Part shown: in pieces, positions 10,335 through 63,597 of the stretch
Layout: each line of letters starts with the position of its first letter
Numbering within the stretch: position 1 is the first letter of the stretch
Source of the DNA: Argopecten irradians
Lineage: Eukaryota; Mollusca; Bivalvia; Pectinida; Pectinidae
Length of the DNA stretch: 64,000 bases
Direction of reading: 5' to 3'
Assembly (NCBI RefSeq): GCF_041381155.1
Contig: NC_091135.1
Coordinates: 65,065,067-65,129,066, forward strand
Program-made: the position numbers and the translations under genes
The notes under the pieces: model-generated
Databases searched by the model: none
Told to the model about the DNA's origin: nothing
The model's input: the letters and a program-made list of their open reading frames with translations, nothing else

Positions 10335-10423
10335 TGTCGCGAACAATTTTCCAGCTGTGAAAAAAGGCTTCGACCAATCACTGCCCCGCTTGCAAACGCT
10401 GTTCGGCATAGGCGGCGAGTAAA

Positions 10424-36553: not shown

Positions 36554-39500
36554 TCACTTGTTGTAAAGTCGAAACAGGATGTACCGAAAGCATTCAACGA
36601 GTAAATGAATGAGTTCTACTCCGCTGAGGACAGATGCACCCACAAACAAACCAATGGTACCGCCAATATCGGACATAAACTGGACATCCTGAAAGAGAGT
36701 GAAACGAATTCACGTCATCGATATCCTGTATGTTAAAAATAAGTATTATTTAATATTAAAAAATCACATTGCAAGCTGAAAAAATAACTTTTCCGCTAGA
36801 GCAAAATATCAATTTGAAAGAATTTCTATTAGTTATGTATCATATTAAGCTCGGATGTTTGATTCTTCCAAAACTGTAAAGTAACACACTTGATGAAATG
36901 AAGACAGGAAGGCATAACGGCATGAACAGACTATTTTAATGAATTTGATAAAAAGACAAAAAGCACATATACTACAGATAGATAGCAATGGATAATGATG
37001 AATTCAGGAAAGGACCAAATAATGTTAAAAAGGAATTAAGGAGACCGATAGATAAGAATGTCTATTATGGTTTTATACATCTTTATATAATATTGAAATT
37101 TTAACTTATTTATACTTACTCCGTAAGCTGGTGCTTCCTCTATGTGCTCGTAGGATAGCTCCTCGAAGTACAAATCCAGCTTCAAAAAGTTGTTGCGAAG
37201 CCTGTAAATGAAATAATTGGTAGGTAATGGGTAAAACAACTAAACTTTTGGCTATATTCGATAAAGTGGTCAAGTAGGTCTTTAGGATTGTACCTGATAC
37301 ACCCATGGCATGATCGTAAACGCCTGATCAACCAACACGGATGTTTTGAATAGTTCATGCACTTATCTTGCACATACACAACGCATACATACTGAATCAA
37401 CCGTCCTTGACTGAGGTATAAGGATAATGCAGATTGTGGCTAAACTGAAAGTGAAATTTATGTACTAAGCGATAAACTACCTACCTGTCTATATTAAGTG
37501 AGCTGTTAATGGGGTCATCGACAAACTCATTACAGTCATATCCGGTCACCATTTTAACCTTCACAGCTTGGTGTTCTTCTGAACACATTAATGGTATCAG
37601 CTCCTTTCTCTGTAAAATTATTGGATTGTATGTCAACATTATACAAATATTGATATTTTGGAGGTTAAAAGTCTCTTCCAAGAAAGCAATGCTTTTATAT
37701 GCCATCTTACCAGGTAGTCGTCGTGAGGCCAGCTGAGACTGGACACGGTAGTAGAGTACTGGGTCTCGCTGTATAAAGATAGAAGTATTATCTTTAATAT
37801 ATAAATTCAGACATTTTAATACTTTCATTGAGTTTAAAAGAATTTGATGTTTAAGTTAAAAGCTAATGCTATTATCACACATTTCTTGAAATATAGTTTT
37901 GACCTGCAACTAATGGTTCGTTCGTAGGAAGAAATCCAGAAGTAATCTTTATACTAGAATTGGATCTAAAATGCAGTCTATATGTGCGCAGTTTAACTGG
38001 AGGACATGCAACTTCATCTAAGCAAAATTAGGTTTGCTTCATTCCGACCATCTTACCTACAAAGAGATTATAATTGCTTCATTCAGACGATCTTACCTAC
38101 AAGAACATTAGGATTACTTCATTCCGACCTTCTTACCTACAGGGATATTAGGATTGCTTCATTCCGAGCCTCTTACCTGCATGGAGATTAGAATTGCTTT
38201 ATCCCGACTATCATATCTGCAAGAAGATTAGGATTGCTTCATACCGACCAGCTTACCTACAAGAAGATTAGGATTGCTTCATTCCGACCAGCTTACCTAC
38301 AAGAAGATTAGGATTGCTTCATACCGACCATCATACCTACAAGAATATTAGGATTGCTTCATTCCGATCCTCTTACCTGCATGGAGATTAGGATGGCTTC
38401 ATCCTGACTATCCTACCTGCATGGGGATTAGAATTGCTTCATTTCGACCATCTTACCCACAAGAAGATCAGGATTGCTTCATTCCGACCCTCTTACCTGC
38501 ATGGAGATTAGAATTGCTTCATTCCAACACTCTTACTTGCATGGAGATCAGGATTTCTTCATTCCGACCTTCTAACCTACATGGAGATTAGGATTTCCTC
38601 AATATGACCATCTTACCTACATGGATTGGTACATGGACATGGTAGATCACCATTCAACTGAGCTTCTAGCACCAAAATGGAACATACAGCTGTAAACCAG
38701 AAACATAATTACAATTGTAGTTGAGAATAAATGAAAAAAGGAAGATAGGCCTTATAGCTTAATTACAGGTATCTTGTGACATACACAGTAAAGAACACCA
38801 GTTGTCTGGACCTTACCAGTGCGATAAGCAGGGAATGTCATTCGTTGTGTGAGTGAACGTTTGTATGTTTTGGGAGGCTGCAGTATAATCGTGTTGTGTC
38901 CCCTTGTAATAGTTTGGTTAGGTTTGATTTAATATATTTACGTCCTATAGTGCTACACGACTGAAACATACACGACATAGACAACACCAAGAAGCACACC
39001 ACACCCGGTCACATACTGACAACGGGCGAACCAGCCGTTCCAATCGCTATATGCTGAGCACTAAGCTGGAGCAGAAGCTACCACCTTTCAGGAGCGAGCG
39101 CTAAACCGGATGCCGAATGTGAGGTTGTACCAAGGAAGACGTTAGGAAGAAGAAAGTAAGTTAGTAAGAAGAAACAAAATAAGATCATACCTCCAGAGCC
39201 TTGTAATAGCTGGACCTTTTATTATGATATCTCAGTGGAGCACCAAAGAATATGTACAACAGTTTAATATTGTAAAGTGACTTTCATATAAAACCTTCAC
39301 CTAGTCCTTAAAATGAACACACTTACACTCGATGTTAGGTCCACAGGTTTTGTTGGAGCTGGCGACTGTAGTGGTATCCATGGAGACAAAGCCTGTTATA
39401 CAGCCACAGATATCTTCTGTTAGAGTGACGAGGCAAACCTGCTCACAAGTCTGTAGGTAACAGGAATTACACCAATACTGTATTTCAGTTCTAAGTCGAA

Positions 39501-42500
39501 GATAGATATAGTATCTATTAGAATATTAGTGTTCTCAACTCAGTTAATTACATACTGTAAGAGGTTTCATTTCTTAACTTTTGTTTTGTTTTGTTTTTGC
39601 TTTTCGTTAAAGTGACAATTCAATGAGGCTAATTCTGTCACTTAACCACGAAGCAAAATATTAACTTAATGTATTGTTCTACATTCCTTATGAAACAGAT
39701 AACAAGAAATATTGACAAATTCCACGACATTGTTAAGTATTTTGATTGATACCGTTGAAATTCCAATTCGTTGATCAATACGATTAAGCAGGTATAACAT
39801 GCATGCTGTACCCATACCCGAGCCAAAGTCACGTACATTAAACAAATGCAATACATAACCACTGAGGATTTGGTGGAATTATATTTAGACAAGAACATAC
39901 ACCTATTAACGTAAACACTCTACTGTAAGAGCGATTTGAGTAGTCCTAAACAAAATTTTCTTTACTACACTGGCAAGTGCCAGGGTTCGGTATACAAGAC
40001 GTCTGACCACAATGTGTAATAGTGGACAACAAGAGAGTTTGAACATTTCACATACATTTCACTTTTCTGGCTTATCACAGTAAAACAAACTAATTTAATT
40101 TCCATTGGAACTGGTTTGTTTCCGATATATATGCAAATCTTAATGTAATCTTAGACTGAATTGTCCCTTTAATGTTTATTTGATTGTAACAGGTTTTAAT
40201 TGTACATAGTTATACGGTTGCCTTCTATCAGTATGTACAAATGAAACCAGCTACATGACTAAATATTTCAAGGAAATACAACTTATGTCGCTTTTGTGAA
40301 AAAAAATATCCAAGATTCTTTCAATATTACAGTCTGAAAGTTCTATGAAAAAGTAGGATTCATGAAATGAATTACAGTAAAATGAAATGGTCACCATATA
40401 TATCAAGTGACCTTTCCGTCATCACGTACCATCCTTGTGTATTCCATACCGTACTTGCGCCTGTATTCCGTCTGTTTCTGACAGTTTCCATGCGGATAAC
40501 CCAGTCTATCGATTGTTTTCTGAAATAAAATTTAACTGCTCAACATTTGTTTGAAGAAACGAGAGATAACGTAGTATTATAGTGTGTAACGATAATATAG
40601 AAACTACAATAATGGTATATAGCTTGGTCGGTATCTCCTCATGTTTTATAGTGTTTACCTCCTTTCGATCGATTGTGAAACAAAAGTCATCATCTAAACT
40701 CTCGTTTGTTAAGGAGGTAAACACTATAAAACATGAGGAGATACCGACCAAGCTTTATACCATTATTGTAGTTTCTATATTATCGTTACATTAGTAACAT
40801 TAGTTTTCACTTTAGCGTATAATTGAAGTTTACAATAACGGTTTATGGTGTTGACATTACTCTTACATATTAACATTGTTTGTAATCAAAGGTTTTGATG
40901 TAATATGAATACCTGTTTGAGACTAACAAATGTCCATGTGGGCGCTAACGTAAGTCCTTGTTCCTCAATGAATGGGTATGTTCCCGGCTCGTGAACCAAC
41001 AGTTTCAGGCCATAGCCACTGCTGTATGGACTAACGTACTCATTTATGTCGAGGTTCAGCATCAATGTCAGGCCTAAATAATTAAAGTTGATAGGAAACA
41101 TAAATAATAGTTAAAGCAATAACAGCTACTTTTTCTTGATACGGAACTTACCGAAAAATATGCGGGCTTTATGATACAAATTATTGACTTTTACAGAAAG
41201 CATGTGAATAGCTCCACTCATGTAAAAGTACTTAAAAAATCCAACAGATATTACTGCTTTTTATCTTAAATTTTACATGTCATTTTTCTTTTTAAATGAA
41301 ATCCTAAAAGCCTCGCATGTTATTACTATTAAAATGATTTGGCACAACTAGCGATAACAAGGATTGGTAACGGATGTGCCACGGACGAAATAGGATTCGA
41401 ATAACCAACCATCTGGTCAAGGTGTAAAGGCTCATAACATTTTCAATGGTAAAAATACATTGTAATAAAATGAACCGTTTATCTATGGTAGGTGTGAAAT
41501 TGAAGCTATTTACCGAAGGCAGGTCCAGGCACTGTCGCCACAAATTGGTCAGTTTGTATCGTGTAACAGTTGCCAAATCTAGCACTTTTAAAGTGCCTAA
41601 AAATACTGAAAATGAACAATATTATTTGTTTTTCAAACAAAAGATACTGAAATTGAAATGAAGGCTTCAGTTTGATTAGTAATATTGCTGTCGGGAGTTG
41701 TTGATGAAAATTAAAAAAAAAACAACGAATCTCTTATTTTCGTTATAACTTTACCTTTGTAAAAATCTCAGTGACATTTAATTATGTGAATGTTTTGACG
41801 ATTGTAATAGTTTATTTTCGTTATCATATTCGAGTGAACATACGTTGTACTTTAATTAGTAATCATTGTCCCTCAACATGCCCGCAATAAGATAGTCGTC
41901 ACCAGTTATAATTTAATAACGACTCTATTGACATACCTGGAATTACATCGCATTCCGTCAATCGAACAGTGAATCAACATATCCTCGATCGAGTGTCCAG
42001 TTCTCAAAATGTCATCTCTACAACCACAAATTGTAATGCGAGCTACGTTCACGGCAACGATAGCTGATTTGTTGTTTTTAAATGAGTTAGAATTATACAG
42101 ATACATATTGTCGTCTGTATATTCATGAGGGCTAATATTGATAAATATTTAACATCGCATCAAAGAGCTTACTTTAAGTAAGATATATTTCTGTCAGATA
42201 CCATATCGCCACATGTGAATAATATATCGATAGAACATATGTATAGTTACTAAAGATAATTTCGAACATAATGAAACAGTGTTACATATTTCATTGATCA
42301 ATTAGCGGTCGTTTAAATGTAAAACATTAAAACATTACAGAAAGGTTTCACTTATAAACTAACATAGCCATTTCATTGATTGCTTGTGTGACTAGCATAT
42401 TCCGGATTTGTAAATGGTTGGTTGGTATGCTCTTAGCTAGATCCCATTGTTCTTTATGCACACCATATTCCTCAAACTTTTTCAGGAAGGCAAATTCCGG

Positions 42501-44853
42501 GTTACTTTTGTCAACGACCGAACGCTCCTGTATTGCACTTTCTCGCATCTGCAATAGAATCACAATTTACCTTCATTGAGAAATAATTGAAAAAAACCCA
42601 ATATCTGTTGGCCTGGAAAAAAAATTAAATAAAAACAAAGAAGCAACGGTTGCCGAGTGGTTAATGTGTCCCGAACTTCTTCAGCTCACCCTCCGCCACT
42701 TGAGTGCAAATTAAAAACTTACTTTTGGCAATATACTGACCGTAGGTCAACGGGTTTCTCCGGGTACTATGACTTTTATCTTACTCAAAAAACCTGATAC
42801 GTCCAAAGACCCATTGATTATCCCTTGCAATCTTCATAATTTGATTTTAAAGTTGAAACCGACAAAACGACGAAAATAGGAGTTACACAAAAAGTAGTTT
42901 TGGTATTTTTTTTATTGGGAGGCAGTAGTGGAGGATTTCGCCTTACAAACAATATTAAATCAGAGTTGCATAAAAAAAATTCTTACTTTTGATTCAATCT
43001 TATAAACATTATTTTCTTGAAATTATAAATCAATTTAATCCCTAGGAAACAATGCCGTCGTTGTATCAGTCAACCTGAAGCGATATTTTCTTGTTGGGTT
43101 CAATAAGTATATTTAAGATAATGAAATTGCTCGTTACAGGCAATATCGAACAATTATTATATAGACCAGGGTTTATTGTGACGTCATAATACGGACACGT
43201 CATAGCTTTTATAGATGGAATCCGCAGAACGAAATAGTTTCTGTTGTAGAAATTTTCAAAATGTAGCTTTGCGATCCATATAAGCTTAAAAGGACTTCGG
43301 CTGGAGTGGATGCCGACATGTGTAAAAACTATACGGCTAACGTTCCTTTTTATCGAATACACTAGCCTCATTTATTTATATAAATTAAATGCTATAGCGA
43401 CCAATTTGGACCTGATTTTTAGTGATAATAATATTAATTACTACTTAATAATTGTTTTGAAGTTAGGAAATTAACAGGGGGGGGGGGAGGTGAAAAACCA
43501 AAAAAAACTTCGTACTTTTTATTATGGACTCAAAACTCTGAATTTTAATTTTAGCACAGCGCGCTAAAAATGAATTAAGAATGAAAAAAATAAGAATTTG
43601 ATAATGCATGCTTACCTCAAGCTCTGGAACTCTCATGTAAAACTCTAAGATGCCGATGGAACTATCGTCAAGTTGAGTGTTTTTTAATGGATTAATATTG
43701 CAGAAAGAAACGACAGGAAATGTTAGTGCTCCATACTTCAAATTTATCGATGTCTGCTTTGGTCGCGAAACAAACATTGATGACAATTTGAAAATCTGAA
43801 AACAAAGGCCTGTATATGTCAGCAAACACAAACTAATCCAGAGAACCTTTTTGTAAGCCTGGTTTGCGGAGACAATGTGAGCTACTCCGTGTACTGTTGT
43901 GTTCATGGCTAGATCTCTTAGAACCTCTTTAAATTTGGCCCTCCTTTTCTCCACAGCTTTGTCGCTGACAGACTCCTATACAGAAAACGAAATGGACTTA
44001 CTGTTAATTGATAAGCTGAAATACAGCGGAAGATAATTGTATTTACCCGATATTTATCAATTAGTAATTGCTGATCTTGTTTGCATGTAAAATAATCATT
44101 TCTAATTGTTACTCTTTTTTATTTCATGTGAAAATATGAAACGTTGAATGGAAAGGTGACACACACAATGGTGTTGAAAAAAGCAAAATTACTTAGTATA
44201 GTTTGTATATATTGTACTTACCTCAATCTCTTGGGCTTCTTCCAGCTCCATTAGTTCGTCTTGTAGCTATTACGTGTCACAAGGTTAAGAAAACCTTAAA
44301 AAAGAAATCACATGTTTCACATGGTCACATTTTAATGAGTAGGATCAACCTTCTAGTATCTCTAATAATCGGTCGGTGAGAATAAATTATACAGTTTACA
44401 AAGGATCCAAAATAATCTTCTGTTTGGTGGAATCTAAAAACAGCAGCTTTCTTTAAACGTATAAGTATACACTAAATAATTCCTAACGCAATGGGCGTAC
44501 TTATTGTATCGTAATCATCCACGAATAAAAGTTCTGAAATCAAAATTCCAATGGAGAGATGGGATGTTATAGATATCAATATATCTCACACATCTAACTT
44601 TAAATAACAATATCAACAAATGGTACATGATATTAACTCAAAAATCACATAGGTCTAATTGAAAGACAAACAGAAAAAAAATCTTAATTTGACGAAACGA
44701 CAGTAATGTTAACAGGACACTGTAAAGAAAAGATAGTTGAATAATGTATGCCATTAAGAAACTAGTTTTACTTACCCCACACACAAACCAGATCATTTGC
44801 ACACTTGTAGTATGTTCTGCTGTGACTTAAAGTCAACCAACGTTTCACTGATA
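36554..44853 (-). CDS. DEG/ENaC-family sodium channel, gene 1 (FaNaC/ASIC-like)
   Basis: Core exons (minus): 44222-44266 (or -44259), 43616-43975, 42364-42548, 41937-42131, 41514-41596, 40913-41073, 40430-40519, 39327-39450, 38617-38689, 37711-37768, 37485-37609, 37120-37201, 36554-36688. All phases join without a stop, giving about 571 residues. Features: N-terminal TVHG gating motif, TM1 (ISLCLLTYTGLCF), a cysteine-rich extracellular loop with RFGNCYT, YPHGNC and CPCTNPC, then TM2 with the GAS selectivity site, ending in TGA. Homotrimeric channels of this family pass sodium across the plasma membrane and are opened by peptides or protons; ligand unknown. Possible further N-terminal exons at 44501-44533 and 44776-44853 also keep phase, using the 44259 acceptor. 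The start codon is not found. Exon 38617-38689 is followed by a splice-donor minisatellite. Confidence 0.88.
38020..38634 (-). repeat. 40-bp minisatellite made of a 5' splice site (gene 1)
   Basis: Fourteen units of exactly 40 bp run leftward from the real donor of exon 38617-38689. Each unit repeats the last few exon bases, the TGTAG|GTAAG junction and about 30 bp of intron. Donor-like boxes fall at 38051-38060, 38091-38100, 38131-38140 and so on to the real one at 38611-38620. A few units have lost the GT or its context. Confidence 0.9.
38921..39135 (-). mobile_element. SINE-like dispersed repeat in a gene 1 intron
   Basis: It begins with the TTTACGTCCTAT stretch shared with the SINE at 45848-46065, then runs through a different middle (GGGCGAACCAGCCGTTCC, GCTGAGCACTAAGC) that I recall as common in bivalve genomes. 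It is probably a related composite SINE; exact ends are uncertain. Confidence 0.5.
39611..40168. mobile_element. MITE with TTAA target duplication, 558 bp
   Basis: Terminal inverted repeat AGTGACAATTCAATGA at the left and its near complement TGAATTGTCCCT at the right, each bordered by TTAA (39607-39610, 40169-40172). The target suggests a Kolobok- or piggyBac-type parent. It lies between exons 40430-40519 and 39327-39450 of gene 1. A relative is at 53172 in gene 2. Confidence 0.78.
40585..40790. repeat. Near-perfect 79-bp-arm palindrome in an intron of gene 1
   Basis: Arms 40585-40664 and 40711-40790 are inverted copies with a single visible mismatch, around a 46-bp loop. In the gene 1 transcript this would fold into a long hairpin. 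Confidence 0.92.
42648..42830 (+). mobile_element. tRNA-derived SINE, plus orientation
   Basis: A-box-like GGTTGCCGAGTGGTTAA at the start, a decayed B box about 45 bp on, then GACCGTAGGTCAACGGGTTTC and a trailing region. It lies in the intron between exons 43616-43975 and 42364-42548 of gene 1. Confidence 0.7.
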
Positions 44854-45468
44854 CTATTGGCAGTTATGGTTTATTAAACAGGGCCCAGAACGAATAATGC
44901 TGGAATGTGGATTATTACCATCACACATTATCAAGGTATCCCATGTGATTGTCCCCAGTGTAATTAAAGCTGTGTAATATGCCATTATTAAAGTAGCTTA
45001 CTTTGATGAAATAGAGTGTTCTAGACAGTATCTGTGTCAAATCTGGTGTTTTTTTAGCTTTGATCACAATGACGCGTTTACAGTTACTATCTCTGATCAA
45101 AGCTCGATATATCTGGTGCCAAAAACAATTGATCTATACTCAAGCGCTTTAGCTTTATTTTGCCAGGGTTTATGTTTCACTATATTTGCGATCTATTTCA
45201 AAGCGCGAATTCAACCCCCCCCCCCCCCTCCAGTGAAATTTAGAACTGCAGACTATTTCAGTATAAATATATAATGAGCATACATGAGCCAAAACGCCCA
45301 ATTATTTTGCTGCATATGTAAACATGACGATATTTCTTTTTGAAAATTCACGATTTAGCTTTAGATATTTAATATCCTTTTTTGATACCGGTGTAGCGCG
45401 AATAAGCGAAATGACACGCTTAAAAATGAGAACAATTATACGACTGCTTTTTCAAGAATGTACCAATA
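44854..45468. other. 5' side of gene 1, no exon identified
   Basis: The putative exon 44776-44853 begins at an acceptor, so at least one more exon or a promoter should lie to the right, but none is clear. A C run lies at about 45216-45229. Confidence 0.4.
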
Positions 45469-47652
45469 TAGCACACCCCATGAAGAAGAATATACCAACA
45501 ACTCACCCCACGAAGAAGAATGTACCAACAGCACACCCCATGAAGAAGAATGTACCAACAACACACCCCATGAAGAAGAATGTACCACCAGCACACTCCA
45601 CAAAAATGATGTTCCAACAACACAGCCCATGAAGAAGAATGTACCAACAGCACACCCCTTGAACAAGAATGTACCAACTGCACACTCCACGAAGAAGAAT
45701 GTACCAACAACACACCCCATCAAGAAGAATGTATCAACGGCGCACTCCACAAAAATGATGTTCCAACAACACACCCCATGAAGAAGAATGTACCAACAGC
45801 ACACTCCATAAAGAAGAATGTACCAACAGCACATCCCATGAAGAATGTTTGGTTTGTTTTAGTTTTACGTCCTATTAACAGCCAGGGTCATGTAAGGACG
45901 TGCCAGGTTTGTTGGTGGAGGAAAGCCGGAGTACCCGGAGAAAAACCACAGGCCAGCGGTCAGTACCTGGCAACTGCCCCACATGGGATTCGAACCCGCA
46001 TCCCAGAGGTGGAGGGCTTGTGGTAATATGTCGGGACATCTTAACCACTCGGCCACCGCGGCCCCATGAAGAATGTACCAACAACACACTCCATGAAGAA
46101 TTATGTACTAATAGCACACCCCATGAAGAAGAATGTACCAATAGCACACTCCATGAAGAAGAATGTACTAATAGCACACCCCATGAAGAATGTATAACAT
46201 CACGTCCAATGAAGAATGCACCAACAGCACACCCCAAGAAGAAGAATGTACCAACAGCACACTCCACGAAGAATAATGTACTAATAGCACACCCCATGAA
46301 GAAGAATGTACCAACAGCACACTCCATGAAGAAGAATGTACTAATAGCACACCCCATGAAGAAGAATGTACCAACAGCACACTCCATGAAGAAGAATGTA
46401 CTTATAGCACACCTCATGAAGAAGAATGTACCAACAGCACACTCCACGAAGAAGAATGTACTAATAGCACACCCCATGAAGAAGAATGTACCAACAGCAC
46501 ACTCCATGAAGAATTATGTACTAATAGCACACCCCATGAAGAAGAATGTACCAACAGCACACTCCACGAAGAAGAATGTACTAATAGCACACCCCATGAA
46601 GAATGTATAACAGCACATCCAAAGAAGAATGCACCAACAGCACACCCCAAGAAGAAGAATGTACCAACAGCACACCCATGAAGAAGAATATGCCAACAGC
46701 ACAGCCCCACGAAGAAAAATGTACCAACAACAAACCCCATGAAGAAAAATATACCAACAACACAGCCCCACGCGGGAAGAATGTACCAACAGCACATCAC
46801 ATGAAAAATGTACCAACAGCAAACCCCATGAAGAAGAATGTACCAACAGCACATCCAATGAAGAATGTACCAACAGCAGAGCCCCACGAAGAAAAATGTA
46901 CCAACAACACACCCCATGAAGAAACATGTGCCAACAACACACCCCATGAAGAAAAATGTTCGAACAACACATCCAATGAAGAATATACCAACACCACAGC
47001 CCCACGAAGAAGAATGTACCAACAGCACACCCCATGAAGAAGAATGTACCAACAGCACACTCCATGAAGAAGAATGTACCAACAGCACACCCCATGAAAA
47101 AGAATGTACTAATAGCACACCCCATGAAGAAGAATGGACCTACAGTACACCCAATGAAGAAGAATGTACTAATAGCACACCCCATGAAGAATGTACCAAC
47201 AGCACACCCCATGAAGAAGAATATACCAGCAGCACACCCAATGAAGAAGAATGTACAACAGCACACTCCATGAAGAAGAATATACCAACAGCACATCCCA
47301 TGAAGAATTTACCAACAGCACAGCCCCACGAAGAAGAATGTACCAAAAGCACACCCCATTTAGAAGAATGTACCAACACCACAGCCCCACGAAGAAGAAT
47401 GTACCAACAGCACACCCCATGAAGGAGAATGTACCAACAGCACACCCCATGAAGAAGAATGTACCAACAGCACGTCCAATGAAGAAGAATGTACCAACAG
47501 CACACCCCATGAAGAAGAATGTACCAACAGCACAGCCCCACGAAGAAGAATGTACCAACAGTACACTCCATGAAGAAGAATGTGCCAACAGCACATCCAA
47601 TGAAGAAAAATATACCAACAGCACATCCCTTGAAGAATGTACCAACAGCACA
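45469..47652. repeat. 30-bp minisatellite, about 65 units
   Basis: The unit is GAAGAATGTACCAACAGCAC within a 30-bp repeat that has CCCCATGAA at its joint. Because 30 is divisible by three, many frames stay open on both strands ([10 protein letters not shown] on +, [10 protein letters not shown] on -), yielding long spurious ORFs. A SINE interrupts it at 45848-46065. Variants with CCACGAAG alternate with CCATGAAG and often come in pairs, hinting at higher-order units. It lies between the two channel genes. Confidence 0.93.
45848..46065 (-). mobile_element. tRNA-derived SINE inserted in the minisatellite
   Basis: On the minus strand it starts with a tRNA-like head: A box TGGCCGAGTGG and B box GGTTCGAATCC (complement 45986-45996). 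It continues to a body ending in the TAAAACAAACCAAA-type tail. It is flanked by ATGAAGAATG on both sides (45838-45847, 46066-46075), although that string is also part of the array unit. It looks well preserved. Confidence 0.85.
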
Positions 47653-49189: not shown

Positions 49190-52100
49190 CTACTTTTTGG
49201 TAAGCCTGTTCACAGCGTATTTGATTACTTCTACGATTACTTGTACGACCTCCACCAGACTCAGTACAGACGCCCCGACAAACAGTCCCGTCGCTCCACC
49301 GATATCAGACAGATATTGATATACCTGAAAGATAATACACAAACTTTATAATGAAAGCAATAACCAAACCAAAAAAAAATTGCAAAAAATATAAATAAAC
49401 ATAACGTTGTCATGGGAATACAAGGGAATTGATATTAGGTGTTCTAAAAAACAAAGGTGTTCAAATTTATAGGATTTGTTAATAAACTATTGACATATGG
49501 ATGGCCTTTTCTGAGAATACAGTCTTGTTCAAGTCTCGTTAAGACCTTGATCAAACGGCTTTTGAGACATTCAAAAGAGTTTTTGTCAATATTTGTTGCG
49601 AGTTGACATATAATGATTGATGACACTACCAGACTAAAGCTTTTACATGTTCTAGGTAAGAATTTTATTTGGTAAATAGATACAACACTAATGTACTACA
49701 GTTTCCCAAAACACTGTATAAAGGGAAGACCGTACTTAAAAGACCCTAGCTTTTACTAGGCTGTAGAACCCAACCAACAACCAAACCAGGTAAGCCATTG
49801 TGCAACTTGTATTCGGTAAAGCAAAACATAAATATTCAGAACGACGACATTTAAGATATCTAACACTATCACACCGTAAAGCTCACATCGTACGCATCAG
49901 CCTCCTCGACATGCTCGTAATTCAGATCTTCAAAATAAACGTCCAATTTCACGAAGTTGTCCTCAAAGCTAGAATAAGAATAAAATTTAAAATTTCTAAG
50001 AGTATTAATTTCAAACGTGGAGTATTCAGATGAGTCCATCGCTGAACACCTTTTCCGGGGTCTGGTAATTAGTATCATCATGCTGTAAAACCATATATTA
50101 AGGGGTTAAATATAAGGCCTGATTCAGAAAAAGGAAGGTTCCTTCAGTTAATTTTTGTCAACATATAATGAAAAATGAAAAAACTAAATCTTAAGTTGTA
50201 ACCATTGAATTAAAGCAAATAATATTTCGAACTTTTATGGAAAAAAGGGAAAAGAAGAAAAAGGACAGAAATCTTTTCCAATGAAATCTATGAATGAGTA
50301 CCCCTTTATGATAAGGGTGTCACTATATAGCTGTCAAAATAGATTACCAAACTAGAAATACTGTGCATATACTTACGGGCGGACGGCTGCCTCGGGTAGA
50401 TCATCCCGGAGAAGGAAGTCATCACATGTGTATCCGGTTATATGTAAAACTTTCTGTGCTCGCTCTGTATCTTCACATATCAAAGGTATGATTTCTTGGA
50501 TCTATCAAAGAAATTGTATATTATACAGTGATAGGGGGATTTATATTGTAGAGATATGAAAAGTCGTAAAAAAAAAGTTAAAAAAAGTTCTTCTATTAAA
50601 CCAATTATAGGATGCGATCCTCATTTCTTACCAGATATTTCTGTCGAGGCCAACTATGACTTGATATTGTCTTGGTGTATACATTTTCCCTGTGAATAAG
50701 ATAATTCTCATCATTACATTTTACCGATATTTTCTTGGTGTATACATATTCCCTGTGAATAAGATAATTCTGATCATTACTTTGAACAACATTTATACCG
50801 AGGGAATGTAACCCTCATATTTGGTATTATCAAGTTTACGTTCGGTTAAAGTTTTATGGTCTATCACTTTCGCTCTTTTTGGCATAGTGAAAACTGTTTA
50901 AGCATTATACTATTTTTTCTCCGTCTGTCTGAGGTTTAAACTTCCTGTTTTACTACTTTTTATAAAGTTGCAGCATTGGAAGTATTTTTTTAATTATAAA
51001 AGTGAAAAATCTTTTCACGTGAAAAATAGGCTCGAAAGATGCCGAATCATTTCGAACTCTTCCGAACATCGTCGTGACAATCTCGAAGTAACACGAGAGT
51101 TGTGAAACCAAGAAAAAATGTCAAATTTTTTTCATTAAAACATGTGGTTGACCTCAGCAGACTGGATCTACAAAGAAAATAATTCTCGCACATTACAATA
51201 TTTGATACACACAATATTTAACGGCAATGTGTGAATTAGATGTTTCAAATACTCACTCTGTGGACATATACCAGCATGATTTGCTCATATCAGCCAAAGG
51301 AAAAACGTAAACAAACACATGAAGGCGCTTTATTTAAAACCAGGAATATATGCTCCCTATATTTCATCTCTCTTTTAGGCCGACATTGCTTTTGGAGAGT
51401 TAAATCATTAATTTGCATGTCCATATCCAAATAGCAAGTGTTTAAGTTACATATCGTTACAGTGAAATTAGCATGAGATATAACTTTAATATTAGTCAAT
51501 TTTTGGTAAATGACAAAAGTAGAAATCTCACCGCGAACTTGATGTAAAAATTATGCAAATTAATTCCATTGACATTCATAAAAAGATTATTAGACCAACT
51601 TATTTCGGAATAGATAGGAAACAATACGTACAGACAAGGGTTGGTACAAGGACAATGTAGATCGCCTTTCACCTGGGCCTGTCTGACGAGAATTGCACAC
51701 GGAACTACAAGATAAAGAATTAGCAATTTGATCTAATCAATATTTTAATTGATGAATGATTGATGATTGTATCTGCAGAACGTTTCTTCAACATTGATCA
51801 CAATACATTTTTTTAAACGGCAAACTTCATTTTGACAACTCGAAACATTAACATTCACAAATGCTTTCAGTTAAATGCATTATCATTAATAGTTCAATAT
51901 CATAATACGACAGTGAATTTTAACTTTGCAATGAGCAAATAACTTGATAAAGGGACTTGTGTTCAGGTTGATATGTATCACACACTATCCAGATATCAAA
52001 CCCACTGTCTAAGGTCGCGCAGACTTTAGAATTACTGGTGATAATGGAGGCATCTATAGATACAATCGTTGGAATACAGCCACATATATCCTCAGTGAGG

Positions 52101-54869
52101 GTCACCTGACAAAGCTGCTCACACGCCTAAACAAAACAACTGCATTAGTATCACATGGAATAGCAAATGAAGCACGTAGCCTTTGTTACTGGAACTCCCT
52201 AACTATCACATCAGATGAAACGCATAAATGGAATAGTAGAGGACAAATGAACACGTAGACTTTGTTACTGGGACTCCCTAACTATAGATGCTATCACATC
52301 AGATGAAACGCATAGCTGATGGAATAGTAGAGGACAAATGAAGCACGTAGCCTTTGTTACTGGGACTCCCTGTCTCTAGACGGATATTTAATCGTTTGAG
52401 TTTATGCTCGCTGATTATCAGCCAGGTCCTGTCCCATCAACGTTGTTGTGACCAGTCTCTTAAACGGCGGCGCATTGAAGTACAAATCATGACCAGTAAA
52501 ATAAATAGATCGACTCACTGATCCAAGATAAGGTTTCATGATATTGAATTATGATAATAACAAAAAAGAGAATAGTTTTACCTGTATTGACCTAACTCTT
52601 TATGAACAATGATACCCTTATACCCTTACTTTTCTGCTATTTTTTAATGATTTTATTCGCTAATTTTTTTTGTTTAATTGACTTTAAATTTGCTTTTGGA
52701 TAAACGTTTTTTATTGAAATAACATTCTAGAATCCTACCATTTTTGAATATTCAATTCCGTATCGGTCGACATAGTCATTATGATATTCACAGTTTCCAT
52801 GAGGAGGAGTAAGCCGTTGGATTTCTATCTGCAAGCGTAAACATATAGGTTACAATTAGTATCTGTGTCACGAAGTAGGAAATCGATTCAAGTACTGCAT
52901 TGATTATGGCAATGTTTATTTCAAGTTAAATGAAAATCTAAGTCACCTCAAAGTTAGTGTCTCACCCGATTTAAGCCGATGGATGTCCGGCCCGGTCCAA
53001 CGTTCACCCCGTGCTCCTCCACAAAAGGATACGAGCCTGGTTCGTGAATCACGAGTTTCATTCCATTGCCACTGCTAGACGGACTGACGTATTCGTAAGT
53101 CTCCAGATCCAATATCATTGAGAGACCTGTTGGTTTCATATAACACAATAAGTTTGCTTCTAAATAGTTAAAGGGACAATTCACTCAGGCTAATTTTTTT
53201 ACATAACCAAGAAGCAAAATATGGCATAAATGTATTGTTCTACATTTCTTATGAAACATATAACACATTAATACATCACGTGACAGAATGCTGGATTCTG
53301 ATTGGCTACACAGATGGATACTATTTGCAATAGTGCCCGGGCAAGCGGCGCAAACTTGAACGTGAATGTGTTGTGACGTCACCATTACATGACGTCATTA
53401 TAACGTTGCGCTTCGACCAAGACGTCAAAACGGCGGACAGGCTGTTGTGTGCGGGGATGAAAGCAAACGTTGCTTTTCTACAGAAGACAGTTCACTCATG
53501 TTCAATATTAATCTACTTTCCCGTTTTTTCTACTAATCCCGTTTTATAGAAACACAGATTTCTGCAACAATTCATATGTTGTACTTTTAATGTAACAACG
53601 TGGTGTGGAAATGGAGATAGCGTTGCGAGGTGTCGCTTGACGTGCTCTGTTACGATGACATGAAAACGGGTCTCATGTGAGGGTGATGTACTAAACCCAT
53701 TATGGCCTGTTTGAGAGGGCACTATTGCCTCATAGTATTGTCGAGGGATAGGATAGTGTATCATCCTCCCTATCACCATTGACCCTCCTATCAATGTCCA
53801 GTTGAGAATACACATCTCAGGGTTCTCAGCCAATGAACATGTTCCTAACATCATATCCGTGGACGATATATAATGGTCCAGATAATGGTTGGACAGTAGT
53901 TGTTTTTATATTTGTCTTCTTATATCTAAATCAATCAATGTCTCAGGGTATATTTAGTTTATAGCTATTTAATGAATGCCATGTATACCGTACGGCGGTC
54001 CAGGTACTGTGGTGACCAGATCGTCTGTCTTTAGTGTGTAACAGTTTCCATACCGGGTATTAGTGATGGGTGTAAATAAACTGTAAAACAAATAAATGTT
54101 CCCTAAATCATTAATATATGTGTTACATTATACTTAAGTCTATAATATTTTTCGTGACGTATCAACTGCAGAGTTTAGTCTATTAAAAGTTTTTGGTTTA
54201 TAATAACTTAAGACGTCAAAGGACGAAAATGATATTATTTCCGGTATTTATTTGTTGTTGTTTACACAAATCATGTATTGGAGTTAAATAATATGTTTTC
54301 AAGTTTCTGCTTGAAAGTCATAGGTCTATGATTTTCGATTCACAAAAGATTCGAAAATGTGCGTGACTGTGACAAACTTAAACAATTGATAAAGAATAAC
54401 CCAATGTGATGCCCATTCATTTGAAAGAAAAGAAAACCAAAAAACAAGTAGCAAACTTTAGCAAAAATATACATGCTACAGACATTCATGCAGTTTGCAA
54501 TTTCAAAGTTAGACGTAGAAAATGCGAATAGATATCATTACTATGTATTTCTTTGTATTTTAGCATTGATCTGTAAAATATCAGTGTATAAATGTGATAT
54601 TGGATGCAATGGGTGTTAAATAAATGAAATAAACAACATTTCGCCCATTTATACAAATACGGTGAATATTAATGTTTACGTCTTAATGGAAATTTTAAAT
54701 ACATGTACATCCTCTCTCGTCTTTAAACTATACATTCTTATTTTTGAGAAGTTAAAAAGAAATATTAACATAACAAATATGATCAAACCTTGAGTTGCAT
54801 ATCATGCTGTTGAAAGAACAGTGGAGTAGCATATCATCAATGCTATGGCCGACTCTCTCAACGACACTC
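49190..54869 (-). CDS. DEG/ENaC-family sodium channel, gene 2 (3' part)
   Basis: Exons (minus): 54789-54869, 53989-54080, 52966-53126, 52739-52828, 52006-52126, 51632-51704, 50632-50689, 50377-50501, 49887-49968, 49190-49324. All phases join, giving 338 residues plus TAG. The order matches gene 1: GHSIDDMLLHC, RYGNCYT, EYVSPSSSG, PPHGNC, LTEDICGC, CPCTNPCL, a WPRQKYL segment, then TM2 with GLFVGAS. Seven of the ten exons have exactly the same length as in gene 1 (161, 90, 73, 58, 125, 82, 135). The N-terminal half with TM1 must lie beyond 64000, past the giant array. It would be a plasma-membrane cation-channel subunit; ligand unknown. A tandem paralogue of gene 1. Confidence 0.88.
50662..50775 (-). 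repeat. Tandem duplication making a possible pseudo-exon (gene 2)
   Basis: A roughly 63-bp segment spanning the acceptor and first ~27 bases of exon 50632-50689 is duplicated just upstream in transcript order. The extra copy has its own acceptor (ATTCACAG) and, at its other side, a GTAAAA donor. This would define a 28-nt mini-exon at 50725-50752; inclusion would shift the frame. Confidence 0.75.
52159..52377. repeat. Tandem roughly 90-bp repeat in an intron of gene 2
   Basis: About two and a half copies of a unit containing ACGTAGCCTTTGTTACTGG and CATCAGATGAAACGCATA, with small indels between copies. Confidence 0.8.
53172..53285. mobile_element. Partial MITE related to 39611-40168
   Basis: It begins TTAA|AGGGACAATTCACTC and matches the left ~100 bp of the MITE in gene 1. 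The right end is not found before the next exon, so the copy is truncated or rearranged. Confidence 0.65.
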
Positions 54870-57800
54870 CTGTCAAAATAAATAACAAAATGGTATTACT
54901 GACTCTCTAATCAACACTCCTGTTAAAATAAAAAACAAAATAGTATTACTGACTCTCTCAACAACACTCCTGTCAAAATAAAAACAAAATAATATTACTG
55001 ACTCTCTCAACGACACTCCTGTCCAAATAAAAAACAAAATAGTATTACTGAATCTCTCAACAACACTCCTATCAAAATAAAAAACAAAAAATTAATTACT
55101 GACTCCCTCAACGACACTCCTGTCAAAATAAAAAAACAAAATATTATTACTGACTCTCTCAACGATACTCCTGTCCAAATAAAAAAAAGAATAGTATTAC
55201 TGACTGTCTCAAAAACACTCCTGTCAAAATAAAAAAAAAAAAAAAAATAATATTACTGACTCTCTCAACAACACTCCTGTCAAAATAAAAAAAAAACCAA
55301 AATAATATTACTGACTCTCTCAACAACACTCATGTCAAAATAAAAAACAAAATAATATTACTGACTCTCTCAACGACACTCTTGTCCAAATAAAAAACAA
55401 AATAAAACTACTGACTCTCTCAAAGACACTCCTGTCAAAATAAAAAACCAAAATAATATTACTGACTCTCTCAACAACACTCATGTCAAAATAAAAAACA
55501 AAATAATATTACTGACTCTCTCAAAGACACTCTTGTCCAAATAGAAAAACAAAATAGTATTACTGAATCTCTCAACAACTCTTGTGTCAAAATAAAAAAA
55601 AATAAAATAAAACTACTGACTCTCTCAAAAACACTCCTGTCAAAATAAAAAAACAAAATAATATTACTGACCCTCTCAAAAACACTCCTGTCAAAATAAA
55701 AAACAAAATATTATTACTGACTCTCTCAACAACGCTCCTGTCAAAATAAAAAAAAATAAAACTACTGACTCTCTCAAAAACACTCCTGTCAAAATAAAAA
55801 AAACAAAATAATATTACTGACTCTCTCATCAACACTCCTGTCAAAATAATAAAAAAAAACAAAATAAAACTACTGACTCTCTCAACGACACTCCTGTACA
55901 AATAAAAACAAAATAGTATTACTGACTCTTTCAACAACACTCCTGTCAAAATAAAAAACAAAATAGTATTACTGACTCTTTCAACGACACTACTGTACAA
56001 ATAAAAACGAAACAGTTTTACTGACTCTCTCATCAACACTCATGTCAAAATAAATAAACAAAATAGTATTACTAACTCTGTCAACGACACTCCTGTCAAA
56101 ATAAAAAAACAAAATAGTATTACTGACTCTCTCAAAAACACTCCTGTCAAAATAAAAAACAAAATAGTATTACTGACTCTCTCAACAACATTCATGTCCA
56201 AATAAAAACAAAGTAGTATTACTGAATCTCTCAACGACACCCCTGTCCAAACAAAAACAAAATGGTTTTACTGACTCTCTCAACGACACTCCTATCCAAA
56301 TAAAAAAAAATATTTTTCTGAATCTCTCAACGACAGTCCTGTCCAAATAGGGAACAAAATAGATTTACTGACTCTCTCAACGACAATCCTGTCCAAATAA
56401 AAACAAAATTGTTTTACTAAATTTCTCAACGACATTCATGTCCAAATAAAAACGAAATAGTATAACTGAATCTCTCAACGACACTCATGTTTAAGAAAAC
56501 GAAATTGTATTATTGACTCTCTCAACGACACTCCTGTCCAAATAAAAACAAAGTAGTATTACTGAATCTCTCAACAGCACTCATGTCCAAAATAGAAACA
56601 AAATAGTATTACTGAATCTCTATACGACACTCCTGTTTAATTAAAACCAATATGGTTTCATTGACTCTCTCAACGAAACTCCTGCCTAAATTAAAACAAA
56701 GTAGTATTACTGAATCTTTCAACGACACCCCTATCCAAATAAAAACAAAATAGTTTTACTGACTCTCTCAACGACACTCCTATCCAAATAAAAACAAAAT
56801 TGTTTTACTGAATTTCTCAACGACATTCATGTCCAGATAAAAACGAAATAGTATAACTGAATCTCTCAACGACACTCATGTCCAAAATAGAAAGAAAATA
56901 GTATTACTAAATCTCTCAACGACACTCATGTTTAAGGAAACGAAATAATATTATTGGCTCTCTCAACGACACTCCTATCCAAATAAAAATACAAAATAGT
57001 ATTACTTACTCTCTCAACGACATTCCTGTCAAAATAAAAAAACAAAATAGTATTACTGACTCTCTCAACAACACTCCTGTCAAAATAAAAACAAAATAGT
57101 ATTACTGAATCTCTCAACAACACTCCTGTTAAAATAAAAAACGAATTAGTATTACTGAATCTCTCAACAACACTCCTGTCAAAATAAAAACGAAATAATA
57201 TTACTGACTCTCTCAACGACACTACTGTCCAAATAGAAAAACAAAATAGTATTACTGACTCTCTCAACAACATTTCTGTCCAAATAAAAAAAACAAAATA
57301 GTATTACTGACTCTCTCAAAAACACTCCTGTCAAAATAAAAAACAAAATAGTTTTACTCTCTCTCTCAACGACACTCCTGTACAAATAAAAACAAAATAG
57401 TTTTACTGACTCTTTCAACGACACTCCTGTCCAAATAAAAAACAAAATAGTTTTACTGACTCTCTCAACGACCCTGGTGTACAATTAAAAAAATAGTATT
57501 ACTGAATCTCTCAATTATACTCCTGTACAAATAAAAAATAGTATTACTGAATCTCTCAACGACAATCCTGTACGAATAAAAAAAGTTTAACTGACTCTCT
57601 CAACGCCACTCATGTCCAAATAAAAACAAAATAGTATTACTGACTCTCTCAACGACACTCATGTCTAAATAAAAAACAAAATAGTTTAACTGAATATCTC
57701 AACAACATTTCTGTCCAAATTAAAACAAAACAGTTTTACTGACTCTCTCAACGACACTCCTGTCAAAATAAAAACAAGATAGTTTTACTGACTCTCTCAA

Positions 57801-60800
57801 CGACACTCCTGTCAAAATAAAAACGAAATAGTTTTACTGACTCTCTCAACGACACTCCTGTCAAAATAAAAACGAAATAGTTTTACTGACTCTCTCTCAA
57901 CGACACTCCTGTCACAATAAAAACGAAATAGTTTTACTGACTCTCTCAACGACACTCCTGTCAAAATAAAAACGAAATAGTTTTACTGACTCTCTCAACG
58001 ACACTCCTGTCAAAATAAAAACAAGATAGTTTTACTGACTCTCTCAACGACACTCCTGTCAAAATAAAAACGAAATAGTTTTACTGACTCTCTCAACGAC
58101 ACTCCTGTCAAAATAAAAACAAGATAGTTTTACTGACTCTCTCAACGACACTCCTGTCAAAATAAAAACGAAATAGTTTTACTGACTCTCTCAACGACAC
58201 TCCTGTCAAAATAAAAACAAGATAGTTTTACTGACTCTCTCAACGACACTCATTTCAAAATAAAAAAAATAATATAACCGACTCTCTCAACGACACTCCT
58301 GTCAAAATTAAAAACAAAATAGTATTACTGACTCTCTCAACAACACTCCTGTCAAAATAAAAACGAAATAGTATTACTGACTCTCTCAAAAACACTCCTG
58401 TCAAAATAAAAACAAGATAGTTTTACTGACTCTCTCAACGATACTCAAGTCCAAATAAAAAAAATATAACTGACTCTCTAAACGACACTCATGTCAAATT
58501 AAAAAACAAAATAGTATTACTAACTCTGTCAACGACACTCCTGTCAAAATAAAAAACAAAATAGTATTACTGACTCTCTCAAAAACACTCCTGTCAAAAT
58601 AAAAAAAAACAAAATAGTATTACTGACTCTCTCAACGACATTCATGTCCAAATAAAAACTAAGTAGTATTACTGAATCTCTCAACGACACCCCTGTCCAA
58701 ACAAAAACAAAATAGTTTTACTGACTCTCTCAACGACACTTCTATCCAAATAAAAAAAAATATTTTTCTGAATCTCTCAACGACAGTCCTGTCCAAATAG
58801 GGAACAACATAGATTCACTGACTCTCTCAACGACAATCCTGTCCAAATAAAAACAAAATTGTTTTACTGAATTTCTCAACGACATTCATGTCCAAATAAA
58901 AACAAAATAGTATAACTGGATCTCTCAACGATCCTCATGTTTAAGCAAACGAAATAGTATTATTGACTCTCTCAACGACACTCCTGTCCAAATAAAAACA
59001 AAGTAGTATTACTGAATCTCTCAACAGCACTCATGTCCAAAATAGAAACAAAATAGTATTAGTGAATCTCTCAACGACATTCCTGTTTAATTAAAACCAA
59101 TATGGTTTCATTGACTCTCTCAAAGAAACTCCTGCCCAAATTAAAACCAAGTTGTTTTACTGACTCTCTCAACGACCCTGCTGTACAAATAAAAAAATAG
59201 TATTACTGAATCTCTCAATTATACTCCTGTAAAAATAAAAAATAGTATTACTGAATCTCTCAACGACAATCCTGTACGAATAAAAAAAGTTTAACTGACT
59301 CTCTCAACGCCACTCATGTCCAAATAAAAACAAAATAGTATTACTGACTCTCTCAACGACACTCATGTCTAAATAAAAAACAAAATAGTTTAACGGAATA
59401 TCTCAACAACATTTCTGTCAAATAAAAAAAACAGTTTTACTGACTCTCTCAACACACTCCTGTCAAAATAAAAACAAGATAGTTTTACTGACTCTCTCAA
59501 CGACACTCCTGTCAAAATAAAAACAAAATAGTTTTACTGACTCTCTCAACGACACTCCTGTCAAAATAAAAACGAAATAGTTTTACTGACTCTCTCAACG
59601 ACACTCCTGTAAATAAAAACAAATAGTTTTACTGACTCTTCAACGACACTCCTGTCAAATAAAACGAAATAGTTTTACTGACTCTCAACGCACTCCTGTC
59701 AAAAAAACAAATAGTTTTACTGATCTCCACACACCCTGTCAAAATAAAAACAAAATAGTTTTACTGACTCTCTCAACGACACTCCTGTCAAAAAAAACAA
59801 AATAGTTTTACTGACCTCTCGCACTCCTGTCAAAAAAAATATTTTACTGAAACGACACTCCTGAAATAGTTTTACTGACTCTCTCAACGACACTCCTGTC
59901 AAAATAAAAACGAAATAGTTTTACTGACTCTCTCAACGACACTCCTGTCAAAATAAAAACAAGATAGTTTTACTGACTCTCACGCACTCTCACAACTGTA
60001 AAACAATAGTTTTACTGACTCTCAAGCACTCCTGTCAAAATAAAACGAAATAGTTTTACTGACTCTCTCAACGACACTCCTGTCAAAATAAAAACAAGAT
60101 AGTTTTACAGACTCTCTCAACGACACTCCTGTCAAAATAAAAACGAAATAGTTTTACTGACTCTCTCAACGACACTCCTGTCAAAATAAAAACAAAACAG
60201 TTTTACTGACTCTCTCAACGACACTCCTGTCAAAATAAAAACGAAATAGTTTTACTGACTCTCTCAACGACACTCCTGTCAAAATAAAAACAAGATAGTT
60301 TTACTGACTCTCTCAACGACACTCATTTCCAAATAAAAAAAATAATATAACCGACTCTCTCAACGACACTCCTGTCAAAATTAAAAACAAAATAGTATTA
60401 CTGACTCTCTCAACAACACTCCTGTCAAAATAAAAACGAAATAGTATTACTGACTCTCTCAAAAACACTCCTGTCAAAATAAAAACAAGATAGTTTTACT
60501 GACTCTCTCAACGATACTCAAGTCCAAATAAAAAAAATATAACTGACTCTCTAAACGACACTCATGTCAAATTAAAAAACAAAATAGTATTACTAACTCT
60601 GTCAACGACACTCCTGTCAAAATAAAAAACAAAATAGTATTACTGACTCTCTCAAAAACACTCCTGTCAAAATAAAAAAAAAACAAATTACTGACTCTCT
60701 CAACGACATTCATGTCCAAATAAAAACTAAGTAGTATTACTGAATCTCTCAACGACACCCCTGTCCAAACAAAAACAAAATAGTTTTACTGACTCTCTCA

Positions 60801-62342
60801 ACGACACTTCTATCCAAATAAAAAAAAAATATTTTTCTGAATCTCTCAACGACAGTCCTGTCCAAATAGGGAACAAAATAGATTTACTGACTCTCTCAAC
60901 GACAATCCTGTCCAAATAAAAACAAAATTGTTTTACTGAATTTCTCAACGACATTCATGTCCAAATAAAAACAAAATAGTATAACTGGATCTCTCAACGA
61001 CACTCATGTTTAAGCAAACGAAATAGTATTATTGACTCTCTCAACGACACTCCTGTCCAAATAAAAACAAAGTAGTATTACTGAATCTCTCAACAGCACT
61101 CATGTCCAAAATAGAAACAAAATAGTATTAGTGAATCTCTCAACGACATTCCTGTTTAATTAAAACCAATATGGTTTCATTGACTCTCTCAAAGAAACTC
61201 CTGCCCAAATTAAAACCAAGTAGTTTTACTGACTCTCTCAACGACCCTGCTGTACAAATAAAAAAATAGTATTACTGAATCTCTCAATTATACTCCTGTA
61301 AAAATAAAAAATAGTATTACTGAATCTCTCAACGACAATCCTGTACGAATAAAAAAAGTTTAACTGACTCTCTCAACGCCACTCATGTACAAATAAAAAC
61401 AAAATAGTATTACTGACTCTCTCAACGACACTCATGTCTAAATAAAAAACAAAATAGTTTAACGGAATATCTCAACAACATTTCTGTCCAAATGAAAACA
61501 AAACAGTTTTACTGACTCTCTCAACGACACTCCTGTCAAAATAAAAACAAGATAGTTTTACTGACTCTCTCAACGACACTCATTTCCAAATAAAAAATAA
61601 TATAACTGACTCTCTCAACGACACTCCTATCAAAATAAAAAACAAAATAGTATTACTGACTCTCTCAACGACACTCCTGTACAAATAAAAACAAAATAGT
61701 ATTACTGACTCTCTCAACAACATTTCTGTCAAAATAAAAACGAAATAGTATTACTGACTCTCTCAACAACACTCCTGTCAAAATAAAAAACAAAATAGTA
61801 TTACTAACTCTTTCAACGACACTCCGGTCAAAATAAAAAACAAAACAAAAATTATTACTGACTCTCTCAACAACACTACTGTCAAAATAAAAAGCAAAAT
61901 AGTATTACTGACTCTCTCAACGACATTCATGTCCAAATAAAAACAATGTAGTATTACTGAATCTCTCAGCGACACTCCTGTCCAAATAAAAAGCAAAATA
62001 GTTTTACTCTCTCTCTAAACGACACTCATGTCCAAATAAAAACAAAATAGTTTTACTGACTCTCTCAACAACATCCCTGTCCAAATAAAAAACAAAATAG
62101 TTTTACTGACTCACTCAACGACACTCCTGTCCAAAAAATAGTTTTACTGACTCTCTCAACGAAACTCCTGTCCAAATAAAAACAAAATAGTTTTACTGAA
62201 TCACTCAAAAACATTCATGTCCAAATAAAAACGAAAAAAGTATAACTGAATCTCTGAACGACACTCATGTCCAAATATAAACAAAGTAGTTTTACTGAAT
62301 CTCTCAACGAAACTCCTGTCCAAATAAAAAACAAAATAGTTT

Positions 62343-62430
<88 letters not shown>

Positions 62431-63597
62431 AACACTAATGTCCAAATAAAAACAAAATAGTATAACTGAATACCTCAACAACACTCATGTCCAAATAGAA
62501 ACAAAATAGTATAACTTAATCTCTCAACGACTCTCGTGTCTAAAAATAATTTTATTGACTCTCTCAACGACACTCCTGTCAAAATAAAAACAAGATAGTT
62601 TTACAGACTCTCTCAACGACACTCCTGTCAAAATAAAAACGAAATAGTTTTACTGACTCTCTCAACGACACTCATGTCCAAATAAAAACAAAATAGTTTT
62701 ACTGAATCTCTCAACAACATCCCTGTCTAAATAAAAAAACAAAATAGTTTTACTGACTCACTCAACTACACTCCTGTCCAAAAATAGTTTTACTGACTCT
62801 CTCAACAATACTCATGTCCAAATAAAAACAAAATAGTTTTACTGAATCTCTCAACAACATTCATGTCCAAATAAAAACGAAAAAGTATAAATGAATCTCT
62901 CAACGACACTCATGTCCAAATATAAACAAAATAGTATTATTGAATCTATCAACAACACTCCTGTCCAAATAAAATCAAAGTAGTATTACTGAATCTCCCA
63001 ACGACACTCGTGTCCAAATAAAAACAAAAAAGTATTTCTGAATCTCTCAACGACATTCATGTCCAAATAAAAACGAAATAGTAAAACTGATTCTCTCAAC
63101 GACACTCATATCCAAATAAAACCAAAATTGTTTTACTAACTCTCTCAACGAAACTCCTGTCCAAAGATAAATCAAATAGTTTTACTGACTCTCTCAACGA
63201 CACTCCTGTCAAAATGAAAAATAGTATTACTGATTCTCTCAACGAAACTCCTGTCCAATTAAAAAACAAATAGTTTTACTAAATCTCTCAACATCATCCC
63301 TGCCTTAAATAAAAATATTAAAAATAACTCTCTCAACGACACTCCTGTCTAAATAAAAACAACTGTTTTACTGACTCTCTACACGACACTCCTGTCTAAA
63401 TGAAAACAACTGTTTTACTGACTCTCTTCACGACACTCCTGTTTAAATAAAAACAACTGTTTTACTGACTCTTTACACGAAACTCCTGTCTAAATAAAAA
63501 ATAGTTTTACTGACTCTCTACACGACACTCTAGTCCAAATTAAAACAAAATAGTTTTACTGACTCTCTCAACGACACTCCTGTCCAAATAAAAAACA
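54849..63597 (-). repeat. 8.7-kb minisatellite made of a 3' splice site (gene 2)
   Basis: Roughly 170 units of 48-51 bp. On the minus strand each unit is a T-rich tract (TTTTGTTTTTATTTTGACAG), the AG, and a copy of the first ~20 exon bases (GAGTGTCGTTGAGAGAGTC) of exon 54789-54869. The true exon is the last copy in transcript order. Many units keep the acceptor (CTCCTGTC on +); others have CTCATGTC, which destroys the AG. Some 2-kb blocks are themselves repeated, for example from 58249 and from 60322. Chance open frames in it code for hydrophobic repeats and are not genes. Confidence 0.95.
62346..62427. repeat. (CT)n run inside the array
   Basis: About 80 bp of pure CT, evidently an expansion of the CTCTCTC part of one array unit. 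Confidence 0.95.

Follow-up and report, generated by a model that had tools for sequence, protein, structure and literature searches.

In a 64,000-nucleotide stretch of the bay scallop Argopecten irradians (contig NC_091135.1 of assembly GCF_041381155.1, positions 65,065,067 to 65,129,066; hereafter the window), two tandem genes predicted to encode channels of the DEG/ENaC family lie on the minus strand. The second of them, here called gene 2, has its own 3′ splice site repeated some 180 times ahead of an 81-nt exon. This acceptor array is probably a giant "mirage", that is, a minisatellite built across an exon–intron boundary, and would be close to neutral and mostly passive, with the last acceptor of the series being the one mostly used.

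The array was delimited with Tandem Repeats Finder (TRF) and by wrap-around alignment of the minus strand. TRF placed one array at 54851-63594, with a period of 49, 179.7 copies and 80% matches, while the alignment resolved 180 units of about 49 bp running from 63601 down to 54851, with a score of 12052 as against 22 to 31 for 3-kb control pieces (three shuffled and two from elsewhere in the window). The unit extends from about −30 to +19 around the 3′ splice site, and thus joins some 30 intronic bases to 19 exonic ones, reading AGTAATACTATTTTGTTTTTATTTTGACAG then GAGTGTCGTTGAGAGAGTC. A 28-base core made of the acceptor and the 19 exon bases occurs at 114 sites with no more than three mismatches, all of them on the minus strand and within the array, and had no match in 100 shuffles. 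The exon at 54789-54869 truly begins with the last unit, whose 19 exonic bases are identical to the array consensus. An earlier note on this DNA, made from the sequence alone, had described an array in which a gene repeats its 3′ splice site and which ends in the real exon, and both points are confirmed here. Its figure of about 170 copies gives way to about 180 units, or 127 if acceptor AGs are counted; the unit does span the acceptor, as it had said, but not every unit retains a copy of it, since the alignment finds the AG in only 127 of the 180.

The exon itself (54789-54869, minus strand) is 81 nt long, has phase 2 at both ends, encodes (K)SVVERVGHSIDDMLLHCSFNSMICNS, takes its first 19 nt from the last array unit and ends at a donor reading GTTTGA. 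Its peptide aligns with ASIC1 (ERVGHSIDDMLLHC vs DRAGHDIRDMLLSC), with E = 0.037 over 26 residues, which is weak when taken alone. The exonic part of the unit encodes a peptide that continues the ASIC1 homology, and the coding sequence is therefore older than the array. This bears on whether a minisatellite, or a satellite carried by a transposon, of some other origin came to lie beside the exon by chance. Tandem repeats are indeed common in the window, with 20 TRF rows, some of them overlapping, but the unit holds the first 19 bases of the exon, which are coding sequence of the family, in splice register, and with three mismatches allowed the core has no match in the rest of the window, so that a chance neighbour can be given almost no credence. 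A 23-base sequence of the unit had no exact match among viral contigs (viral_contigs).

The origin of the array can be placed further with the help of the tandem paralogue, gene 1, which occupies about 44.0-36.5 kb of the same strand and whose segments match those of gene 2 down to the second transmembrane exon. The segment of gene 1 with the first transmembrane exon (43463-43972) matches Pfam ASC at 3.8e-16. Its homologous exon (41937-42017) is also 81 nt long and phase 2-2, with the acceptor TTGTGGTTGTAG and the donor GTATGT, and has no array; the homologous intron, predicted at 42018-42351, would be 334 bp long and contains no repeat. The array consensus scored 18 against gene 1 at 41800-42360, which is background, and the spacing to the GHSI motif is the same in both genes, namely one split codon plus six codons. 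Since the gene 1 exon is alike in length, phase and position and yet has no array, the exon and its acceptor predate the array. From the layout of gene 1, the array appears to lie within an intron. Either it arose from the acceptor region of gene 2 after the two genes separated or it was lost in gene 1, and the former would be the simpler course.

The array copies are not all in the same state. The 53 units that have no AG mostly carry T at position −1 (43 units, beside 4 with C, 3 with A and 2 with a gap), and one keeps the G and has lost the A. The G at −1 is conserved in 71% of units, the fourth lowest value among the 49 columns, and positions −1 and −6 tie for the highest number of parsimony changes (18, against a column mean of 6.1). 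With conservation this low at the acceptor G, selection that retains the decoys, as the AG-bearing copies other than the real site may be called, is disfavoured, and nothing indicates that the AGs of the decoys are kept up by selection. Selection that destroys them is not claimed either: changes at −1 are many, yet of the 20 units closest to the exon 15 have AG, as do all of the closest nine, the real unit included. Other highly variable columns likewise hold two common alleles, and the units recombine, so that no selection at this position is claimed either way.

Acceptor strength was gauged by two crude measures, the pyrimidine count and the AG-free zone, with no trained model. In 106 of the 127 AG-bearing units, the real site included, there are at least as many pyrimidines as at the real site and an AG-free zone of at least 20, and the decoy acceptors are thus good by local sequence. 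The expectation that the array offers many sites similar to the true acceptor therefore stands for most of the AG-bearing copies, but not for each copy of the array.

A frame analysis found that none of the 126 decoys is open through the real exon, a stop intervening in every case, even though for 40 of them (41 if the real site is counted) the shift is a multiple of three. Splicing to a decoy would lead to early termination of translation, and the mRNA would probably be degraded. The suggestion that array acceptors are used and add hydrophobic peptide repeats to the channel is not borne out by this result. It draws on minus-strand open stretches of up to 150 amino acids in the array, rich in F, L, I and V, but besides the closed frames a period of 49 is not a multiple of three; this count covers decoys read on through the real exon, and such a peptide addition is very improbable.

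A plausible course of events for the mirage would begin when some 49 bp spanning the acceptor of the DEG/ENaC exon were duplicated in tandem. This repeat could then have expanded to 180 units by unequal exchange and by duplication of whole blocks, its growth on the intron side being tolerated because surplus acceptors would leave with the intron provided that splicing takes the last one. The last copy would normally be the one chosen, since from no other copy does the transcript run directly into the full exon and its donor.

Several observations weigh against so passive a view. The donor of the exon, AAG then GTTTGA, has 6 of 9 matches to the consensus and a log-odds of −0.14, computed with human frequencies. 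Within the array, 111 of the 914 GTs also have at least 6 of 9 consensus matches (98 of these are AGA then GTCAGT, with a log-odds of −1.13), 7 of the 914 reach the log-odds of the real donor, and 4 of the GT 9-mers stand at 7 of 9 matches. A supposition that array units are without good donors was therefore dropped, given that the real donor itself scores only 6 of 9. With a weak real donor and similar GTs in the array, exon definition singles out the last unit only weakly, for which reason the choice of the last acceptor is put forward as an inference, and cryptic exons within the array are possible. The surplus of changes at −1 might point to decoys being selected against, although the similar columns and the nine nearest units with AG temper this. 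Lastly, in the human ABCA7 gene a comparable variable number tandem repeat (VNTR) at a donor does alter splicing with its length (PMC5954066).

These points bear on a second reading, in which the array is a functional rheostat or sink. Its decoys would vie for splicing factors or engage the upstream donor without a productive outcome, and the length of the array would set the share of productive mRNA or the in-frame skipping of the symmetric 81-nt exon. The good local standard of the 106 units is in keeping with this, as is the density of sites of similar standard, which number 116 in the 8.7 kb of the array vs 171 across the remaining 54.8 kb of the minus strand. Moreover, the exon has a length that is a multiple of three and phase 2-2, so that its skipping keeps the frame, and its donor is weak where that of the gene 1 counterpart is strong (log-odds of −0.14 vs 5.66), from which the exon may be an alternative one in gene 2. 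On the other hand, the acceptor G is poorly conserved, the paralogue has no array, and the lancelet mirages described below are reported not to disturb splicing. A rheostat or sink is accordingly unlikely, though it is the likeliest of the alternatives; length-dependent tuning or exon skipping is possible, and the tests made lend no support to a new splicing system.

The internal structure of the array speaks to its history and to the quality of the assembly. The best unit-to-unit repeat spacing is 43 units (mean identity 0.857 vs a median of 0.815), the blocks at 58430-59430 and 60500-61500 are 99% identical outside gaps and lie 2.07 kb apart, and blocks of about 43 units have thus been duplicated. 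Divergence is higher in the first 40 units at the far end, with about 8 edits per unit vs 4 to 6.5 in the other blocks; inner runs are homogeneous, but the unit on the exon side is close to consensus, so that these observations speak both ways on the mirage trait of concerted evolution in the interior that passes over the boundary units. Units that are shortened and rich in deletions were seen by eye at 59420-60050, possibly from unpolished assembly, and binned counts gave 2.5 deleted positions per unit for 59500-59999, with other bins high too, for example 62000-62499. TRF also reported a pure (CT)41.5 tract at 62345-62427, inside one unit of the array. Local instability, or else an error of assembly, shows at both this tract and the deletion-rich stretch. 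A 210-nt piece at the exon edge folds with z = −2.24, with 6 of 200 shuffles as good; the repeats pair with each other.

It may be asked on these grounds whether the array exists but has had its length, its block copies or its deletion-rich stretch inflated or misassembled. The deletion-rich units at about 59.4-60.05 kb (in a bin that is raised, although not unique) and the nearly identical blocks would fit, and for one lancelet mirage an apparent misassembly in the draft genome has been reported (PMC3087553). However, the many diverged unit variants, together with the more diverged units of the far end, have the look of a real old array, and one side of the array joins the exon, which leaves such an artefact improbable.

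Gene 1 is without an acceptor array and has a repeat at another splice site, this time a donor. Its exon ending in ...ACCAATCCATGTAG at 38617 runs into a donor array at 38625-38027 (minus strand), in which TRF finds 15 units of 40 bp, the first unit being the real junction. The unit has an exon-end-like CCATGTAG or CTTGTAG, then a donor such as GTAAGA, and GT is present in 14 of the 15. Read-through past the first donor gives TGT AGG TAA and meets an immediate stop. Selection on these donors is not seen, as the donor 9-mer has a mean major-allele frequency of 0.889 vs 0.877 elsewhere and ranks 20 among 40 circular windows. At the homologous donor of gene 2, CTTGTCT/GTACGT, there is no array and no TRF row. 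Adjacent paralogues thus carry an acceptor array in one and a donor array in the other, and in both the unit spans the exon–intron boundary, the authentic junction is the outermost unit (at 54851 for the acceptor and 38625 for the donor), and many, although not all, units have the splice signal (127 of 180 with AG and 14 of 15 with GT).

The donor units also hold CTAAT shortly before TAG/GTAAG, with 12 CTAAT and 2 CTGAT at 38027-38688, an arrangement resembling serial recursive splice sites. A more speculative and quite unlikely proposal would take the two as mirror-image, length-dependent rheostats, with 126 decoy acceptors in one gene and, in the other, 14 donor units beyond the real one, 13 of them with GT. 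The acceptor array and the weak donor would then titrate splicing away from the 81-nt exon, which has a conserved cysteine motif, or cause its in-frame skipping. Exchange between array and exon could feed coding variants, and the donor units, many of which pair the branch-like CTAAT with TAG/GTAAG, could serve as serial sites of recursive splicing.

The rest of gene 2 lies downstream of the array at 49193-54097 on the minus strand, as approximate homologous segments recognized by Pfam ASC and by matches to the paralogue. These are 54097-53984, 53184-52954, 52831-52736, 52126-51930, 51704-51634, 50501-50412, 50000-49880 and, with the second transmembrane exon, 49345-49193. Pfam ASC gave 8.2e-9 for 53184-52954 and a match below cut-off, 6.3e-4, for 50105-49869; over nine pieces of both genes, three were above cut-off, one below and five had no match, the 26-residue exon among the latter. 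GLFVGASVLS stands ahead of the C-terminus in both genes. By the Pfam ASC matches, the ASIC1 alignment and the conserved motifs, genes 1 and 2 are DEG/ENaC channel genes, and judging from their open homologous segments both appear to be intact. On whether they stand closest to the FMRFamide-gated channels (FaNaC) rather than to ASIC or ENaC, the matches were SCNN1B at 3.7e-6, FaNaC at 6.7e-6 and ASIC2 at 2.1e-5, from a query that included one wrong stretch. A search of the whole window located none of the first exons of gene 2, the one ahead of the array included, as the exon peptides of gene 1 convincingly matched gene 1 only.

Other repeats lie in and around the two genes. A 91-bp repeat of 2.4 copies at 52164-52371 sits in an intron of gene 2 and ends 37 nt before the exon start at 52126, and a 99-bp stretch is 85% identical between 39606-39704 and 53167-53265, in apparently non-coding parts of both genes. 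Between the genes, at 45454-47652, is a 30-bp array of 73.7 copies with plus-strand open stretches and KNVPTAHPMK-like decapeptide repeats, in which no splice-site register was seen by eye. Further off, one 50-bp repeat occurs at 7878-7990 and 17667-17779 in opposite orientations, flanked by mirrored open reading frames that were spotted by eye at about 6.1-9.8 kb and 16.0-18.3 kb, which makes a large inverted repeat. The open reading frames at 981-4786, 10412-12120 and 30226-34057 are, judging by eye from their motifs, putative retroelement-like polyprotein, RecQ-like helicase and LINE-like endonuclease and reverse transcriptase frames.

If the length of the acceptor array is real, it amounts to a natural stress test of splice-site choice, in which the true acceptor comes after 126 AG-bearing copies of itself. 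Most decoys are locally as good and the exon donor is weak, and therefore the choice of the correct site must read beyond the local signal. The occurrence of acceptor and donor mirages in adjacent paralogues suggests that such repeats originate repeatedly and are tolerated in some genomes, and this is relevant to how introns grow and are gained.

The earlier note knew of no described system of this kind at this scale, a claim not supported by the literature, where lancelet mirages and the ABCA7 VNTR are both on record (PMC3087553, PMC5954066). A literature search with few terms, with most subscription journals outside its reach, found no acceptor array of comparable copy number. In the lancelet (amphioxus), "mirages" are described as tandem repeats across 5′ or 3′ exon–intron boundaries (PMC3087553). 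They are known from the globins BflGb6 and BflGb9, and similar ones are reported for Adh, troponin C and PGBD5 (PMC3087553, PMC3902484). The BflGb6 mirage has 6 and 3 units in two haplotypes, with AG/GT in many of them but not all, and the Adh3 data, together with reverse-transcription polymerase chain reaction on the globin, are reported to suggest that regular splicing is undisturbed (PMC3087553). As in BflGb6, the 3′ end of the intron and the 5′ part of the exon are duplicated together in the scallop, and the 10-72 bp units of lancelet Adh3 bracket its 49 bp; in contrast, the scallop array has 180 units and lies in a DEG/ENaC gene, and it is known from one assembled haplotype, whereas length variation and RNA evidence are reported for the lancelet.

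Human ABCA7 offers another comparison. The VNTR in its intron 18 has a 25-bp unit with a splice donor, ranges from about 12 to about 427 units and reaches up to 10.7 kb, and its length is reported to affect splicing, with isoforms that include exon 19 skipping and one-unit retention (PMC5954066). Like the acceptor array, it starts at and includes a splice site and is of comparable size, and there the retention of one unit shifts the frame to a premature stop. It differs in its shorter unit and in repeating a donor rather than an acceptor, for which the 40-bp array of gene 1 is the nearer match. The minisatellite of human IFI6 (6-16) is cited for multiple donor sites (Turri et al. 1995, via PMC4526556; also a reference title in PMC2572611), and there too minisatellite units supply multiple splice sites of one gene, although these are donors and the repeat units are reported to be used, with three mRNA species. 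Splice acceptors are also reported from the internal repeat units of a human herpesvirus, another case of splice sites carried on repeats. Intron gain by tandem genomic duplication of AGGT segments (PMC3443670) similarly copies splice signals through tandem duplication, but creates a new intron within an exon, whereas in the scallop the end of an existing intron has been amplified. Set beside these systems, the acceptor array looks like an exceptionally large example of the known mirage type.

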